Below the pieces are notes generated by a model, which was given only the letters and a program-made list of their open reading frames with translations, was not told where the DNA came from and searched no databases. This document shows, in pieces, positions 1-54,346 of a DNA stretch of 64,000 nt. Position 1 is the first letter of the stretch. Every line of letters starts with the position of its first letter. The stretch covers positions 1 to 64,000 of the forward strand of contig JALEGB010000012.1 in the NCBI GenBank assembly GCA_022760355.1, read 5' to 3'. This DNA comes from Neomegalonema sp. GTDB taxonomy: Bacteria > Pseudomonadota > Alphaproteobacteria > Rhodobacterales > Rhodobacteraceae. Position numbers and translations under genes: made by a program.

Positions 1-93
1 GTCTTGACCGGGCAATCAGCCCGCTCCGCGCCCGGTGCGCAGCCGAGAACGGGCTAGGAAGCGCTGACGACGCCTGCTGAAGGGGTTTCGACC

Positions 94-2160
94 CTAGTCG
101 CCCCACAGCTCGCGACGGCGGCGGCGGCGTTCGCGGATTCTCTCCCGCACTGGTTCGCGTCGGGTATAGGTTGGGCGAACGGGCTGCGCATTCGAGCGGG
201 TGCGGCGCACGCGGCGACGCGGCGTCGCTCTTGAGCGTGAAACGGGCTCGGCGCTTGTGCCGACATAGGCGTAAGAGCTTGGAATCGTGCTTTCGGCCAG
301 CGCAGCGATCGGCATGCCTTCGTGAATAGGCTCCATGATCGACTGCCAGATCATCGCTGGAATGCTGCCGCCGGTGACGCGATGAAGCGTCTTTTCTTGG
401 ATATCGTTGCCCATCCAGACCACGCCGATAAAGTCGCCAGTGAAGCCTGCGAACCAAGCATCGCTATAGTTCTGCGTGGTTCCGGTTTTGCCTGCTGCGG
501 GACGTTCGCCCAAGCGCGCGCGGCGTCCGGTGCCCCCGTCGACGACGGAGCGCAGCAGCGACACCATCCATTCTGCGTGTTTCTTAGGCATAACGCGCTC
601 AGTCGTGTTGGCCTTGTGGCGCCAAAGCACATTTCCGCGGCGATCCGTGATCTCAACAATTCCGTAGCCCGGCGTGGACAGCCCGCCGCGGTTGAAGGAG
701 GCGTAGGCCCCCGCGACTTCAAGCGGGTTGGTTTCGATCACGCCAAGCGCCAGAGACGGAAAAGGAGGGATATGGTCTTTGAAGCCGGCTCGGCGCGCCA
801 GCGCGATGACGCGCTTCATACTGGCGGCTTGAAACAGGCGGACGGCCGCCACGTTGCTTGATCGGGCCAGGGCGACCGACAGCGGGATCCAGCCGAGATA
901 TCGGCGCGAATAGTTGCGAGGCGACCAGGCGCCGGAGGCGGTTCGGATTGTGACCGGACCATCCAGCACCTTTGATCCAGGCGAGACTCCAGCCTCAAAT
1001 GCTGCGGCGAAAACGAAAGGCTTAAAGGCTGAGCCGAGCTGTCGGCGCGCTTTTGCGGCGCGGTTGAATTCGGAGCGCGCATAGTCGCGCCCGCCAACCA
1101 TCGCCCGCACCGCGCCGTCTTTGCTTAAGATAACAAGCGCCGCTTGGGCGGCCTTGTCCCGCTTCGCATGCTCGGCGAAAATCTTCTCGACAGATTCTTC
1201 CGAGACTTTCTGCGCGCGCGGATCCAGGGTGGTGCGGACGATAACGTCGTCCGCTTTTTTCCAAACTTCCGCCGGAATTTCATCCAGCGCCCAGTCGACG
1301 AAGTAGGAGGACCGCTCGGTAATGACTGGGGGTTTCATCTGATCAATTTCGACACGAGCGGTCAGATATTGATCATAGTCCAGCTTGCCGGAGCGAAACA
1401 TCGCGCCCAGAATGACCCGCGCGCGCCCTTGCGCTTTGGTAAAGTCATTGGTCGGCGACCACTTCGATGGCGCGCGCAGGAGGCCGGCAAGCAAGGCGGC
1501 TTGCGCGGGCGAAATCTTCTCGACATCAACCTTGAAGTAAGTCTTGGCGGCGGCTCTAAACCCATAAGCTCCGGCGCCCAAATACACGCGGTTCATATAT
1601 ATTTCTAGAATTTCTGGCTTCGTATACTTGTATTCCAAGGCAAAAGCGAAAGCGAGTTCTCGTAATTTCCGCCCGAGCGCCCGCTCCGAGCCGACAAAGG
1701 ATTTCGCCACCTGCTGCGTCAATGAACTCCCGCCCTGGGCCGTGCGGCCGGCGCGCCAGTTTACCCAAAGCGCCCGCGCGATGCCAAGCGGGTCCACACC
1801 GGTGTGCCAGAAGAACCGGAGATCCTCCGTCGCGAGGATCGCGTCGATCACCACCGGGCTGACCTTAGAGTAGGAGGCGCGCTCATGCTTTTGTCCGCGG
1901 ATGCCGAGGAAGCTGCCGTCGAGCGCATAGAAAGAGGCGGACCCTTTCTCGCGCGCGTCAAGCAATTCGCGATAGTCGCCCGGCAGATCGAGTGAGCGCT
2001 GCCATGTTGCGATGCCAATGACCGCGCCGACGCTTAATCCAAGTGCAAAGAGACCGATCACTATCGATCGCACCAACCGCCAGCCGAGCCACAGCCCGCG
2101 GTAAATATTCATGGTGAAGGCGACAGCGACGCGATGGCCCCCGGTTGAAATTCTGCTCAT
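94..2160 (-). CDS. Penicillin-binding protein 1A family (transglycosylase/transpeptidase)
   Basis: Glycosyltransferase motifs (EDLRFFWHTGVD, GGSSLTQQVAK) and transpeptidase motifs (SNVAAVR, GKTGTTQNYSDAWFAGFT); Arg-rich C-terminal tail. Confidence 0.93.
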   Translation of the reverse strand: MSRISTGGHRVAVAFTMNIYRGLWLGWRLVRSIVIGLFALGLSVGAVIGIATWQRSLDLPGDYRELLDAREKGSASFYALDGSFLGIRGQKHERASYSKVSPVVIDAILATEDLRFFWHTGVDPLGIARALWVNWRAGRTAQGGSSLTQQVAKSFVGSERALGRKLRELAFAFALEYKYTKPEILEIYMNRVYLGAGAYGFRAAAKTYFKVDVEKISPAQAALLAGLLRAPSKWSPTNDFTKAQGRARVILGAMFRSGKLDYDQYLTARVEIDQMKPPVITERSSYFVDWALDEIPAEVWKKADDVIVRTTLDPRAQKVSEESVEKIFAEHAKRDKAAQAALVILSKDGAVRAMVGGRDYARSEFNRAAKARRQLGSAFKPFVFAAAFEAGVSPGSKVLDGPVTIRTASGAWSPRNYSRRYLGWIPLSVALARSSNVAAVRLFQAASMKRVIALARRAGFKDHIPPFPSLALGVIETNPLEVAGAYASFNRGGLSTPGYGIVEITDRRGNVLWRHKANTTERVMPKKHAEWMVSLLRSVVDGGTGRRARLGERPAAGKTGTTQNYSDAWFAGFTGDFIGVVWMGNDIQEKTLHRVTGGSIPAMIWQSIMEPIHEGMPIAALAESTIPSSYAYVGTSAEPVSRSRATPRRRVRRTRSNAQPVRPTYTRREPVRERIRERRRRRRELWGD

Positions 2161-11350: not shown

Positions 11351-11396
11351 CCTGATCTTTTATCATGAAAGTTTTTCCGCCTCTCGGCTCACGCCG

Positions 11397-11471
11397 GTTC
11401 GCACCCTAGAGCTTGTTTGGTCGCGATTTGCGAGCCGTTAGATGGGTCCATCTAACTTCAAATCGCTCTAG
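11397..11471. repeat. Dispersed repeat: TAGGGTGCGAAC element plus 66-bp CTAG-bounded palindromic element (copy A)
   Basis: GTTCGCACCCTAG, then CTAG...GCGATTTG-N7-TTAGATGG-gt-CCATCTAA-ctt-CAAATCGC...CTAG; near-identical inverted copy at 24460-24527. Confidence 0.85.
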
Positions 11472-12175
11472 GCGTTGAGCTGATCTGCTAAATCATCGAA
11501 ATCTCGAGCATTAATCGTCCATGCGCCGGTTGGGGCCAAATCCTTGCTTTGCCCTGGCCCATGTTCCGTCGCGCGCAGCACAAACGCCGTCTGCAATCCC
11601 GCCGCCGCGGCGGCCTCTAAATCCTCATTATGCGCCGCAACCATCATGCAGGCCTCCGGCGGCGCGTCCGCCATCGTTGCGGAGCGCAGATAGGCTTCGG
11701 GTTGAGGTTTGTAAGCCCGAGCAGGCTCCGCCCCCAATATCGCGTCCCATGGCAGCGCCGCTCGCCGCGCCATCCGGGCGATCAGCGCGATGTTTCCGTT
11801 CGAACAGGGCGCGATAAAATAGCGTTGCTTCAGCCGCGACAGCGCCGGCCCAACCTCCGGCCATGGGTCCAACCGACGCCACGCCTTATTCAGATCGCGC
11901 CGCGCCGGCTCATCAAACAATTCGGCGACGCCGAACTGCGCCAGCAGCTTGTCCAAGCTTTCACGATGCAAATCATCGAGGATCGTCCATCCCCGTCGAC
12001 CGCTGCGCACTTCCTCCATCGACGGCTGATAGAGGCTCCGCCACGCATCCGCGAACGCAAATGGGTCCAGCGCCGCGCCCCGCGTCTCGGCGGCCTGCTT
12101 GACTTCGCGGGCGACAGAGCCGCGCCAATCAACCACGGTTCCAAAGACATCGAATAACAGCACTTCCGGCAGCAT
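11468..12175 (-). CDS. Haloacid dehalogenase type II / HAD hydrolase
   Basis: MLPEVLLFDVFGTVVDWRGS... with HAD motif I DVFGTVVD and LGAEPARAYKPQPEAYL; start moved from ORF-track 12229 to an internal ATG. Confidence 0.88.
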   Translation of the reverse strand: MLPEVLLFDVFGTVVDWRGSVAREVKQAAETRGAALDPFAFADAWRSLYQPSMEEVRSGRRGWTILDDLHRESLDKLLAQFGVAELFDEPARRDLNKAWRRLDPWPEVGPALSRLKQRYFIAPCSNGNIALIARMARRAALPWDAILGAEPARAYKPQPEAYLRSATMADAPPEACMMVAAHNEDLEAAAAAGLQTAFVLRATEHGPGQSKDLAPTGAWTINARDFDDLADQLNA

Positions 12176-23266: not shown

Positions 23267-24463
23267 ATGAGATTTGCCGCAATGTTGGCGGGCGCCGCAG
23301 CGCTGAGCGCTTTTGTCGGCGCCGCAAGCGCCCAGGAGACGCCCAAAAAAGGCGAGCAGGATGGCAAGGCGCTCTCGGTCGCCGAAATTGACCCGGACGA
23401 GCTGAAAGCGGCGGAAATTCGTCTGCGGCAATATTTGCGGGGCGAAGGCTACCGCAAAATCAGCCTGACCGGCGTTGTCGCCGGCTCAGCGCAGATGAAG
23501 GCCTGCAAAGGCGAGACGACCTCGGTTCTGGTCATTGACCGTTTTGGCCGCGTCGTTTCTTCGACGCCGGCGGGCGAATGCCCAAAGCCGGATCTCATGG
23601 ACAGCTTCCTGGCCGCCGTCACCAACGAGGAGCTGACGGATGAGGAAGTGAAAATTGTCGAAGATCAGGTGCTGGCCCAGGGCTATACGCAGGTCACGCT
23701 GCTGGAGCGCAAAGGCAGTGAGATGAAGGCTCGCGCCTGCCGCGGCATCCGTCGCTACGCGCTGGTGGTGAATCCGGACGGCAAAGTTCTTTCTTCAGAG
23801 CGCGATCGCAACTGTAAGGCGCTGAAGCCTGGACCGAAGCGCGAGGAGCTGCTGCGCCGTTCGCTGCAGGCGCGCGGCTATATCGCGATTAAGTTCGTTG
23901 ACGCTGGCGGCCGCGCGCGCCGCGCCCTCGCTTGCAATGGCGTGCGCTATTTCGACATGACCTTTACCGCCGACGCGGCCATCCTGCAGCGCGGCGTTTT
24001 GGGGTTCTGCCCGTCGAAACTGAACTTTGCGGCGCTGCCGCCACGTCCAGTCGGCAAGGATGAAATTCCGGCGGCTGGCATTATTGAACCGCAGCTCTGC
24101 CAGGACATTCTCGCGCAGATGATCTATCGCCGTCCGATCAACTTCGAGTTCGGCAAAGCGGATCTGACCCCGGACAGCGTGGCGTTTCTCGGCGAGGTTG
24201 CGGCGGTGTTGGCGCGGTGTACTGGCGCCCGTCTGCTGATCGAGGGCCATACGGACAATGTCGGCTCGGACGCGGCGAACGCGAAGCTGAGCCTTGATCG
24301 GGCCAAGTCGGTCGCAAAGGTCCTGAAAGGCTACAAACTCGGCGCGCGCGCCTTTGCGCCGGCCGGATTTGGCGAGCGGTTCCCGATCGCCAGCAACGAC
24401 ACCGACGAAGGCCGGGCGAAGAACCGCCGCATTGAGCTGACGTTGCAGTGGGGCGGCGACTAG
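23267..24463 (+). CDS. OmpA-family protein with three N-terminal Cys-pair repeats
   Basis: Signal peptide MRFAAMLAGAAALSAFVGAASAQ; OmpA domain INFEFGKADLTPDSVAFLGEVAAVLARCTGARLLIEGHTDNVGS...; ATG at 23267. Confidence 0.88.
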   Translation: MRFAAMLAGAAALSAFVGAASAQETPKKGEQDGKALSVAEIDPDELKAAEIRLRQYLRGEGYRKISLTGVVAGSAQMKACKGETTSVLVIDRFGRVVSSTPAGECPKPDLMDSFLAAVTNEELTDEEVKIVEDQVLAQGYTQVTLLERKGSEMKARACRGIRRYALVVNPDGKVLSSERDRNCKALKPGPKREELLRRSLQARGYIAIKFVDAGGRARRALACNGVRYFDMTFTADAAILQRGVLGFCPSKLNFAALPPRPVGKDEIPAAGIIEPQLCQDILAQMIYRRPINFEFGKADLTPDSVAFLGEVAAVLARCTGARLLIEGHTDNVGSDAANAKLSLDRAKSVAKVLKGYKLGARAFAPAGFGERFPIASNDTDEGRAKNRRIELTLQWGGD

Positions 24464-24527
24464 GGCGATTTGAAGTTGGATGGACCCATCTAACGGCTCG
24501 CAAATCGCGACCAAACAGAGGCTTAGA
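24460..24527. repeat. Dispersed palindromic repeat (copy B, inverted relative to copy A)
   Basis: CTAGGGCGATTTGAAGTTGGATGGACCCATCTAACGGCTCGCAAATCGCGACCAAACAGAGGCTTAGAG; starts at the TAG stop of the OmpA-like gene. Confidence 0.85.
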
Positions 24528-24727: not shown

Positions 24728-25084
24728 ATGGCTGGCGAAGTGATTAAAATGAAAGCGCAGATCGTTGGTTCGGATGAACGCGCGCTCGATCCTCAAAATC
24801 ATGACAGCGAAATGGCGCGCGAGATCGCCAAAGAGCTGTGCGATGCGATGACCAAGAGCTACGGCGAGCGCGACGACGTGCGGCCGGAGACGCTGGCGAT
24901 CGCCGCGCAAACCGTTATCGAGACTCTGATGTCCGGCATTGAACGCGAGGGCGTCAACTGCGCCAGCATGCGCGTCGCGCTGGCCAACAGCCTGCTGGTG
25001 AATGGCGACGCGAAGGTTGAGATCGAGGTCGATGGCGAGTCGATGCCGAGCTCGTTCGGCGATGGCGGCGCAACGTTCCATTAG
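24728..25084 (+). CDS. Conserved-looking hypothetical protein (118 aa)
   Basis: MAGEVIKMKAQIVGSDERALDPQNHDSEMAREIAKELCDAMTKSY...; SD-like GGAAGGA upstream. Confidence 0.7.
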   Translation: MAGEVIKMKAQIVGSDERALDPQNHDSEMAREIAKELCDAMTKSYGERDDVRPETLAIAAQTVIETLMSGIEREGVNCASMRVALANSLLVNGDAKVEIEVDGESMPSSFGDGGATFH

Positions 25085-25106
25085 GGTCAGAACTCATAAA
25101 TCTGGC
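25082..25106 (+). repeat. Short dispersed repeat at TAG stop (TAGGGTCAGAACTCATAAATCTGGC)
   Basis: Matches inverted copies at 53077-53099 and 54322-54346. Confidence 0.8.
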
Positions 25107-25220
25107 TGCTGTCAGCCCCGTTAGGGACCTGGAGAAGTTCGGGAGCTGGAGAAGCCAGAAGGGGCGCGCCGCGCGTATTGGGGCTGCCGGGATCGGTTCG
25201 GCCAGGGCGGCGAAGCGCGG

Positions 25221-42838: not shown

Positions 42839-43849
42839 ATGTCGGGATATGATTGGGTGCATGCGCTGATATCTGACATCAGCCCGCCGACCTTCGTCGC
42901 GGGAATGCTGGCCGCTCTCAGTATTTTTGCATTCTATTCTTTTATATATGGCGAGAAAAGCCGGAAGCACTTCAAGCGTCGTATGGCGGATGTTAAGGAG
43001 AACCGCGCTCAATTGCGAGCGTCGCTGACCTCGCGGAGCGACAAGGGCGAACAACCCTCGAAGATCAACAGCTCCAATATCCGCGCAATGCGGGAAAAGG
43101 GGCTGATGGACCGCGCTGTTGAGAAGCTGAACCTAGCGGAAAAGGCGAATGACTCGGATCTGAAGTTGCGTCTCGCGCGAGCCGGCCTGCGCCGCGACTC
43201 CGATGTGGTCCGCTTTGTATTTCTTCGTATCGCCTTGCCGCTTCTATTCGCGCTTGCCGCCGCCGGGCTCTACGCGTTGCTCTTAGCCAAGTCCGGTGGG
43301 TTCAAGCCCGTGCTTGCCGTGTGTTTCGGGCTTGTTGGCGGCATTTTTGGCTTTCTCCAGCCGTCAATGCGCATTGATGGGATCGCGGCGAAGCGGAAGA
43401 AAGAGATTATCCAGCATTGGCCAGATGCGCTGGATCTTCTGACCATCTGTGTTGAGAGCGGAATGTCGATCGAGCAGGCCTTCAACAAAGTCGCCGAAGA
43501 GATGGAGGATGGGGCCGTGACTTTGGCTGAAGAGCTGAAATTCACCACGGCGGAGCTGTCTTATCTCGGCGATCGTCGGCGGGCGTTGGAGAATTTGGCG
43601 TTGCGGACAGATGCGCCCGCGGTGAAAGCGGTGGTGTCGGCGTTGGTGCAGGCGGACAAATATGGCACGCCCGTGGCCTCGGCGCTGCGTGTGATCAGCG
43701 CCGAAGGTCGTTTTGATCGTTTGGCGGCTGCTGAGGCGAAGGCGGCGGCGCTGCCGGCGAAGCTGACGGTGCCGATGATGGTCTTCTTCCTGCCGGTTCT
43801 CTTTATCGTAATCCTGGGCCCATCGATCCTGCAGGTGATGGACCTTTAG
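42839..43849 (+). CDS. tadC: Type II secretion system F family protein TadC
   Basis: HWPDALDLLTICVESGMSIEQAFNKVAEEM; follows tadB. Confidence 0.93.
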   Translation: MSGYDWVHALISDISPPTFVAGMLAALSIFAFYSFIYGEKSRKHFKRRMADVKENRAQLRASLTSRSDKGEQPSKINSSNIRAMREKGLMDRAVEKLNLAEKANDSDLKLRLARAGLRRDSDVVRFVFLRIALPLLFALAAAGLYALLLAKSGGFKPVLAVCFGLVGGIFGFLQPSMRIDGIAAKRKKEIIQHWPDALDLLTICVESGMSIEQAFNKVAEEMEDGAVTLAEELKFTTAELSYLGDRRRALENLALRTDAPAVKAVVSALVQADKYGTPVASALRVISAEGRFDRLAAAEAKAAALPAKLTVPMMVFFLPVLFIVILGPSILQVMDL

Positions 43850-43885
43850 GAGTTCGCACCCTAGGTCGCGCCTCATAAATCCAGG
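43850..43885. repeat. Short dispersed repeat, head-to-head partial copies
   Basis: GAGTTCGCACCCTAG then CTCATAAATCCAGG in opposite orientation; immediately 3' of the tadC TAG stop. Confidence 0.75.
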
Positions 43886-44080: not shown

Positions 44081-45055
44081 ATGCTATCCACTTTTAGAAC
44101 TCTCTGCGCAGCGCTGTTGATCGCATTCGGCGTCGCAGTCACTGCGCAGACCACTGCTTCGGCTCAGGGCCACCCGCCCGGCAGCTTCATCATCCGTTCG
44201 GCGCAAAAGGCGCTCGATGGTGATCCTCGCGGCGTATGGGAATTCGTTCGCTGGCGCGAAACGCCGCAAGGTCACGCGTACTGGCTGCGCCAAGCGCGCG
44301 CCATGGAGAGTGGCGGCGTTATGGAGTCGCGCGCTCGCCGCATCCTGCGTGGCTGGATCCGCCGTGCGCGCGCTGGTGAGCGCAGCGCTGTTCCGCCAAC
44401 CTTCGTACTGTCCGCGGCTCGTCGCGCAGCGCGGAGCGACCCAAGCGGCGTCATCAGCTTCGTAACCTGGGCGCGGACCCCGCAGGGCCATAAGTATTGG
44501 TCGGCTCAGCATCGCTATGCGACAAATGGCGAGCGCATCTATCCGCTGGCGCGCCGCACGATCCTGAACTGGATCCGTAAAGCCGAGCGCGGCTTCACCC
44601 CGCCGCCTCCACCTCCGCCGCGCCCAGTTGCTGGCGGTCACCCGCCTTGCAGCTTCAAGCTGAACGCAGCGCAGCGCGCACTGGATGGCGATCCACGTGG
44701 CGTTTGGGACTTCGTATTGTGGCGTGAAACCCCACAAGGCCATGCTTACTGGCAGCGTCAAGCTCGCGCCATGGAAGCTGGCGGCGTTATGTCTCCCCGC
44801 GCACGCCGCATCCTGCGCCGTTGGGTCCGTGTTGCTCGCCGTGGCGCACGCAGCCCGGTTCCACCGACCTTCGTTCTGCACGAAGCGCGTCGCGCGCTGC
44901 GCAGCAACCCATCGGGCCTGATCCGCTTCGTTACCTGGGCGCGCACCCCACAAGGCCACGCTTACTGGTCGTGCCTGCACCGCAAGGCGAAAAGCGGCAC
45001 CCGGATTACGCCGCTGGCGCGTCGGATCCTGCGGAACTGGATCAGCAAATACTAA
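44081..45055 (+). CDS. Secreted basic tandem-repeat protein of unknown function
   Basis: Signal peptide MLSTFRTLCAALLIAFGVAVTAQTTASAQ; SD GGAGGGT before ATG 44081; four repeats with FVxWxxTPQGHxYW and ARRxLxxWI. Confidence 0.85.
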   Translation: MLSTFRTLCAALLIAFGVAVTAQTTASAQGHPPGSFIIRSAQKALDGDPRGVWEFVRWRETPQGHAYWLRQARAMESGGVMESRARRILRGWIRRARAGERSAVPPTFVLSAARRAARSDPSGVISFVTWARTPQGHKYWSAQHRYATNGERIYPLARRTILNWIRKAERGFTPPPPPPPRPVAGGHPPCSFKLNAAQRALDGDPRGVWDFVLWRETPQGHAYWQRQARAMEAGGVMSPRARRILRRWVRVARRGARSPVPPTFVLHEARRALRSNPSGLIRFVTWARTPQGHAYWSCLHRKAKSGTRITPLARRILRNWISKY

Positions 45056-53076: not shown

Positions 53077-53099
53077 ATATTTATGAGTTCGCACCCTAG
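53077..53099. repeat. Short dispersed repeat at TAG stop of minus-strand gene
   Basis: ATATTTATGAGTTCGCACCCTAG; 21-bp exact match to 54326-54346. Confidence 0.85.
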
Positions 53100-54106
53100 G
53101 TGAGCGAGGCGACTGTGAGCACAATTTTGCCGATATGGGCTGAGCTTTCCATACGGCGGTGAGCTTCCGCCGCGTCCTCAAGATCAAACAAGCGGTCCAT
53201 CACCGGCGCGATCCGGCCATCCTCGAGCGCAGGCCACACTTTTTCTTCAAGCGCTTGGGCGATGGCGGCTTTAGCCTCATTTGAGCGTGGGCGTAGCGTT
53301 GAGCCGCTCCAGCTGATGCGCTTGACCATGGCGGGCGCGAAATTGACCTCTGCTTTCGGACCGTTGAGGAACGCGATGTTTACGATCCGCCCATCCTCAG
53401 CAGCGCATTTGAAGTTGCGCGGAATGTAGTCGCCGCCGACCATATCAAGGATCACATCGACGCCTCGACCGGCGGTCTTTTCCTTGATGATCTCAGCGAA
53501 ATCATGCTCGCGGTAATTGATCGCCAGATCGGCGCCGAGTCGTTCGCAGGCGGCGCATTTCTCAGCGGAGCCAGCGGTCGTAAACACCCGCGCGCCCATT
53601 AATCTCGCCAGTTGGATCGCTGTTGTGCCGATGCCGCTGGAGCCGCCATGCACCAGCAGCGTTTCACCTTCAGCCAAACCGGCGCGATCGAAAACGTTGC
53701 TCCAGACCGTGAAGAAAGTTTCGGGTACGGCCGCGGCTTGCTCGAAACTGAGCGGCGCGGGGATTGGCAGCGCATGAGATGCGGGGACGACAACATACTC
53801 CGCATAGCCGCCGCCGGGCGTCAACGCGCAGACGGCGTCTCCCAACGTCCAGCGCTCAACGCCGGCGCCGAGGTCCACGACTTCGCCGGCAACTTCCAGT
53901 CCCGGCAGGTCGGATGCGTCCTTGGGGGGCGGGTATGCGCCTGCGCGTTGCAGGGCGTCTGGGCGGTTTACGCCAGCGGCCCGAACCTTGATCAGAATTT
54001 CGCCGTGGCCGGGGAAAGGCGTGGCGCGTGTGGCGAGTCTGAGTTTCTCCGGGCCGCCCGGCTCGGAAATTTCTACGCAGCGCATTAGACTCGCTAAATC
54101 AGACAT
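53096..54106 (-). CDS. NAD(P)H-quinone oxidoreductase, zinc-binding dehydrogenase family
   Basis: MRCVEISEPGGPEKLRL; LLVHGGSSGIGTTAIQLARLMGARVFTTAGS. Confidence 0.93.
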   Translation of the reverse strand: MSDLASLMRCVEISEPGGPEKLRLATRATPFPGHGEILIKVRAAGVNRPDALQRAGAYPPPKDASDLPGLEVAGEVVDLGAGVERWTLGDAVCALTPGGGYAEYVVVPASHALPIPAPLSFEQAAAVPETFFTVWSNVFDRAGLAEGETLLVHGGSSGIGTTAIQLARLMGARVFTTAGSAEKCAACERLGADLAINYREHDFAEIIKEKTAGRGVDVILDMVGGDYIPRNFKCAAEDGRIVNIAFLNGPKAEVNFAPAMVKRISWSGSTLRPRSNEAKAAIAQALEEKVWPALEDGRIAPVMDRLFDLEDAAEAHRRMESSAHIGKIVLTVASLT

Positions 54107-54321
54107 CCGCCTCTCCCGCCAAGCATGCGCGCCAACATTAAGGCGCGTCAACGGACGATTGTTAGCGGAAGAGTTGGCGCGCGGCTATCATGGAGACGCC
54201 GCGCGACGGGCCGATCATCGACGCACGGCTTCCCCCGGCTGGCCATGTGGAAGGCAGGGTTCGATCACCGCCCAAGCCTCGTCCGAAAGCCAGAGAAGCC
54301 GCCTGCCGAACGCTGGCTCGG

Positions 54322-54346
54322 CCAGATTTATGAGTTCGCACCCTAG
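54322..54346. repeat. Short dispersed repeat at TAG stop of apt
   Basis: CCAGATTTATGAGTTCGCACCCTAG. Confidence 0.85.

Follow-up and report, generated by a model that had tools for sequence, protein, structure and literature searches.

In the 64,000-nucleotide stretch of Neomegalonema sp. DNA analysed here (the window), copies of a short repeat, hereafter family A, adjoin the ends of several genes. After apt lies a truncated element (54212..54343, minus strand) in which a left terminal inverted repeat (GGGTGCGAACTCATAAATCTGGCCGAGCC...), matching another left end at 50 of 50 positions, is followed by the 5' portion of what is probably an IS5-type transposase gene, now decayed, with no right end. 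The apt stop TAG (54343..54345, minus strand) would be made up of the target TA and the first G of this element. A 19-bp solo remnant of the terminal repeat follows the quinone oxidoreductase (QOR) gene, where it is flanked by two convergent stops (53078..53096, minus strand), and the apt and QOR ends do share the identical 21 bp, CTAGGGTGCGAACTCATAAAT, reported for them earlier. A diverged terminal repeat (25084..25108, plus strand) is found at the TTAG stop of a 118-aa gene (24728-25084), and a 14-bp fragment reading CTAGGGTGCGAACC on the minus strand (11396..11409) adjoins an element of a different family, family C.

The sequences that the first-pass annotation had listed at apt, QOR, the 118-aa gene, tadC, 11397-11409 and the PBP gene were all present, with two amendments to how they are read. 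The two head-to-head copies described after tadC exist, but the second (GTCGCGCCTCATAAATCCAGG; 43863..43885, plus strand), which has its CTAG in common with the first, is strongly diverged, and the tadC stop is a TAG internal to the first remnant (C variant; 43847..43861, minus strand), not the TAG of the junction; its context, TTTAG, is the CTAAA variant read on the opposite strand. The sequence at the PBP stop (74..97, minus strand), taken for a diverged copy, is instead a terminal repeat of a second MITE-like family with the same YTAG flank, family B. The window copies of family A are old, decayed remnants with no evident function. A separate 300-nt direct repeat (44201-44500 versus 44669-44968, 75% identical and 468 nt apart) was also observed 3' of tadC.

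That the repeat is real and dispersed, as first proposed, is borne out at both scales. The 21-mer TAGGGTGCGAACTCATAAATC has four matches with at most 3 mismatches in the window (25082-25102 on the plus strand; 43843-43863, 53078-53098 and 54325-54345 on the minus strand) and none in 100 shuffles. With the same tolerance, the host genome, 3.86 Mb in 143 contigs, holds 164 copies, 75 on the plus and 89 on the minus strand, and the reversed control of the 21-mer has no match. About 100 of the 164 listed copies were fetched and their flanks read on both sides, so that the loci under study were selected for carrying the repeat. Many host contigs (e.g. C27, C28, C30, C47, C50, C66) start or stop no more than about 130 bases from an end of a family A or B element, and these repeats have therefore probably broken the assembly.

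Family A is a group of MITEs, and the short repeat, GGGTGCGAACTCATAAATCTGG, forms their inverted termini. The inner parts of these termini are of two main types, TGGCCGAGCCAGCGTTCGGCAGGCGGC and TGGTCGTCGCCAGCCCGTCAAACGCGC, found at opposite ends of many complete elements, which fall into size classes of about 55, 70, 106, 157-166 and 264-266 bp. When ends were paired over spans of 30-2500 bp, 26 pair rows were obtained, mostly spanning 53-264 bp, a few of which are chance or overlapping pairs. As expected of MITEs, terminal inverted repeats thus stand at both ends, and complete copies are short and non-coding (mostly 55-266 bp), with the exception of one 840-bp copy. This element (locus L064, 454-1293, contig C84) has family A ends and CTAG flanks and carries a 218-aa ORF with a weak similarity to DUF4893, below the cut-off; it is possibly a mobile cassette with a passenger gene. 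Complete copies fold as long hairpins, with z-scores of -7.0 for a 76-nt copy and -9.7 for a 163-nt copy.

Family A inserts at YTAR, mostly CTAG. Over 115 distinct ends, the flank has C or T at position -3 in 112, followed by T (107 ends) and A (109 ends), and the first element base is G in 113. Paired ends read CTA|G...C|TAG in 12 cases, CTA|G...C|TAA in three and TTA|G...C|TAG in one. TA thus stands on both sides in 16 of the 22 pairs, as in a target-site duplication, the remaining pairs differing by apparent mutation. The letters duplicated are most plausibly TA, with the following G as the first base of the element, because the four asymmetric pairs on which this choice turns mismatch under a 4-bp CTAG duplication and all fit TA plus an initial G; a duplication of CTAG is disfavoured by the CTA|G...C|TAA pairs. 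Searches for empty sites inside the host genome returned only boundaries of other repeats, none of them convincing.

These features bear on the proposal that the repeat is a palindrome of REP/RAYT type or some other dispersed repeat unrelated to transposons. Family A is indeed short, dispersed and extragenic, with TAG at one end, yet REP sequences are single palindromes of 20-40 bp with a GTAG or CGTC tag, and the units seen here are longer and have a YTA flank. Complete copies differ between their two inner ends, are bordered by TA and vary in size up to 840 bp, and one copy runs into a probable IS5-type transposase remnant, all of which makes this proposal scarcely credible.

That remnant, in the apt copy, may point to the source of the family. 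Its translation, WLSDEAWAVIEPCLPHGQPGEAVRR, matches PF13340 (IS4/5 transposase N-terminus) with a score of 18.6 bits (E=0.0022), short of the curated cut-off of 34.3 bits, and at the nucleotide level the remnant has 73% identity to an IS5-type copy on contig C122 (locus L091, 1-715). The transposase of this second copy is read in two frames, and its end at CTAG, GGATGGGAACTCAATCAAC, differs from that of family A and is related to it, the end sequence being CTAGGATGGGAACTCA; the copy is a candidate relative of the mobilising IS. Domain searches of the host genome gave one match to PF13340 and two to PF01609, the C122 copy being interrupted where its contig begins and the second copy being partial; neither an intact DDE transposase nor an autonomous element with exact family A ends was found in this genome. 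Since an intact DDE transposase is required of members, the family A repeats are filed as derivatives of IS5/IS427. As the apt-stop copy continues into what looks like the remnant of such a gene, an IS427-like transposase of the IS5 family is the probable agent of mobilisation.

In Paracoccus, the IS427 group of the IS5 family comprises elements of 832-865 bp with mostly 2-bp direct repeats (PMC3281130), and the flanks of family A agree with direct repeats of this length. Further likenesses to members of this group such as ISPaes1, ISPbe2 and ISPze1 (PMC3281130) include a probable IS4/5-type transposase, whose PF13340 N-terminus is recognised in the remnants, the short inverted repeats and the two-frame transposase of the C122 relative. 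In contrast to the IS427 group, family A repeats are mostly non-autonomous, and no intact transposase with their exact ends was found. With bacterial MITEs such as MITEAba12 (PMC6382973) and the Coxiella QMITEs (PMC5896051), they share a short, non-coding and hairpin-forming structure, terminal inverted repeats and a high number of copies.

The genes that carry the window copies were compared with their homologues. The apt homologues of 29 relatives all end at query position 189, the stop codon itself varying among them, and QOR homologues end at positions 347-351 of 351, again with a wide variety of stop codons. Both host genes are of full length relative to these homologues, so truncation by the element was rejected, and each of the two elements inserted where an intact gene ends. 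The tadC gene, whose stop lies within the remnant, contrasts with them; its homologues align to positions 331-336 of 336.

Genes around the fetched copies were called with a home-made hexamer model trained on the fetched DNA, and the 99 ends preceded by TAG were classified. The lock to stop codons that had been claimed holds in part: 38 of these ends lie exactly at an in-frame stop, a share of only 38% genome-wide, and the other 61 are intergenic, with none inside a gene. Unoccupied CTAG sites of the same DNA are intragenic in 83 cases, intergenic in 56 and at stops in 36. Element ends face the 3' rather than the 5' side of genes in a ratio of 80:18, as compared with 77:55 for unoccupied non-genic CTAG (P=1.8e-4), and this holds for non-stop ends alone (42:18 vs a background of 41:55; P=0.001). 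Among 3'-facing sites, however, the share of stops is the same in elements (38 of 80) as in the background (36 of 77; P=1).

This equality weighs against a transposase that would recognise, beyond YTAR, the context of stop codons or of terminating transcription units. Ends do lie at stops about twice as often (38/99) as oriented, unoccupied, non-repeat and non-genic CTAG sites do (18/90; OR 3.1, P=5e-4), but the excess is gone once the comparison is conditioned on the 3'-facing flank, and what remains is accounted for by the loss of 5' insertions. Stop-specific targeting was therefore rejected, and the broader reading is considered very unlikely.

The other half of the initial interpretation, in which the repeat is a 3'-end regulatory module kept after stops as a terminator, mRNA stabiliser or processing site, could draw on the 38 of 99 ends exactly at stops and on the strong hairpins of complete copies. 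It is left unsupported by the 61 ends located away from stops and by a stop share among 3'-facing ends that equals the background; moreover, the window copies are single truncated ends whose folding (z-scores of 0.16, 0.01 and -1.85) is not significantly better than that of shuffles. Such a role is thus highly improbable.

The first-pass annotation was essentially right in its alternative suggestion of a mobile palindromic element targeting CTAG, in view of the paired inverted ends, the YTAR target, the apparent TA duplication and the probable IS5-type transposase remnant. With high confidence, family A consists of MITEs that stem from an IS427-like transposase of the IS5 family, which presumably moved them in trans, and its association with stop codons results from the choice of YTAR as target combined, most likely, with selection, not from a regulator of gene ends. 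The transposase would act at YTAR and duplicate TA. With G as the first base of the element, a YTAA or YTAG stop that receives an insertion would end up as TAG and the full reading frame would be kept, and where one CTAG is common to two convergent stops, both genes would be left with TAG. Elements between two convergent stops were found at three loci (L020, L070 and L071), and the flanks at L071 and L114 imply a former TAA that is now TAG. Since YTAR read in frame is necessarily a stop codon, and since the stop share of 3'-facing ends equals the background, the lock to stops needs only this target and few insertions in genes and 5' flanks. Stop codons often supply such a target and would take an insertion without harm. 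Selection would remove insertions within genes, and those in 5' flanks would be depleted, so that survivors would accumulate in 3' flanks and on stops; selection, rather than an insertion bias toward 3' flanks, is the most likely cause of this scarcity.

In Coxiella, a QMITE2 copy inserted at the 3' terminus of enhC likewise affects where this gene stops (PMC5896051). Unlike the MITEs cited above, family A is a sequence family of its own, the first G of which would rebuild TAG from the target TA, the host protein being neither extended nor cut. The IS481-type ISLxc2/ISLxx4 (PMC2516522) also have a stop codon within the host insertion site, at an NCTAGN target, but there the six-base NCTAGN is listed as the duplicated site and the stop is that of the transposase itself, whereas in family A it is that of the host gene. 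A literature search for stop-codon cases of IS5 with CTAG or YTAR, with partial coverage, found nothing directly comparable. Family A adds to the known MITEs, the stop-preserving junction being its interesting part. It illustrates how an apparent stop-codon signal can arise from a transposon target, when an in-frame YTAR is a stop that the first base of the element restores, and it cautions annotators and users of term-seq against taking such repeats for 3' regulators. The family also offers a clean system in which insertion bias can be tested against selection.

No copy of family A was found in 80 relatives or 384 other genomes of the class, nor in GTDB contigs, viral contigs and plasmids, collections that may omit the host genome and very near ones. 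It is a largely decayed and apparently lineage-restricted MITE family of IS5/IS427 type. Families B and C were likewise absent from all 20 other genomes searched.

Within the host genome, the terminal repeat of family B (GGGTCGAAACCC(C/A)TTCA(T/G)CAG) has 93 copies and family C (AGCGATTTGAAGTTAGATGG...) has 53. In the window, family C forms a 61-nt inverted pair (11410-11474 and 24457-24520, 95% complementary), both members of which are at CTAG stops, and 7 of the 13 YTAG stops called there adjoin a repeat of family A, B or C. At sampled loci, TAG-preceded ends were at stops in 7 of 10 cases for family B and 6 of 8 for one type of family C, in small samples with no background comparison. It is conceivable, though rather doubtful, that a terminal G, the YTAR target and shared convergent stops amount to a selected stop-preserving landing strategy that several families of the host genome use in parallel; if so, mobile DNA could accumulate at gene ends almost free of cost. 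Hybrid elements with one family A end and one family B end were observed at two loci (L060, 6459; L019, 1503). A further unclassified repeat beside CTAG, G(G/A)(T/C)GGGAACAGCACGCGACA, was seen at three positions (L039, 2920; L044, 232; L082, 973), two of which are at stops.
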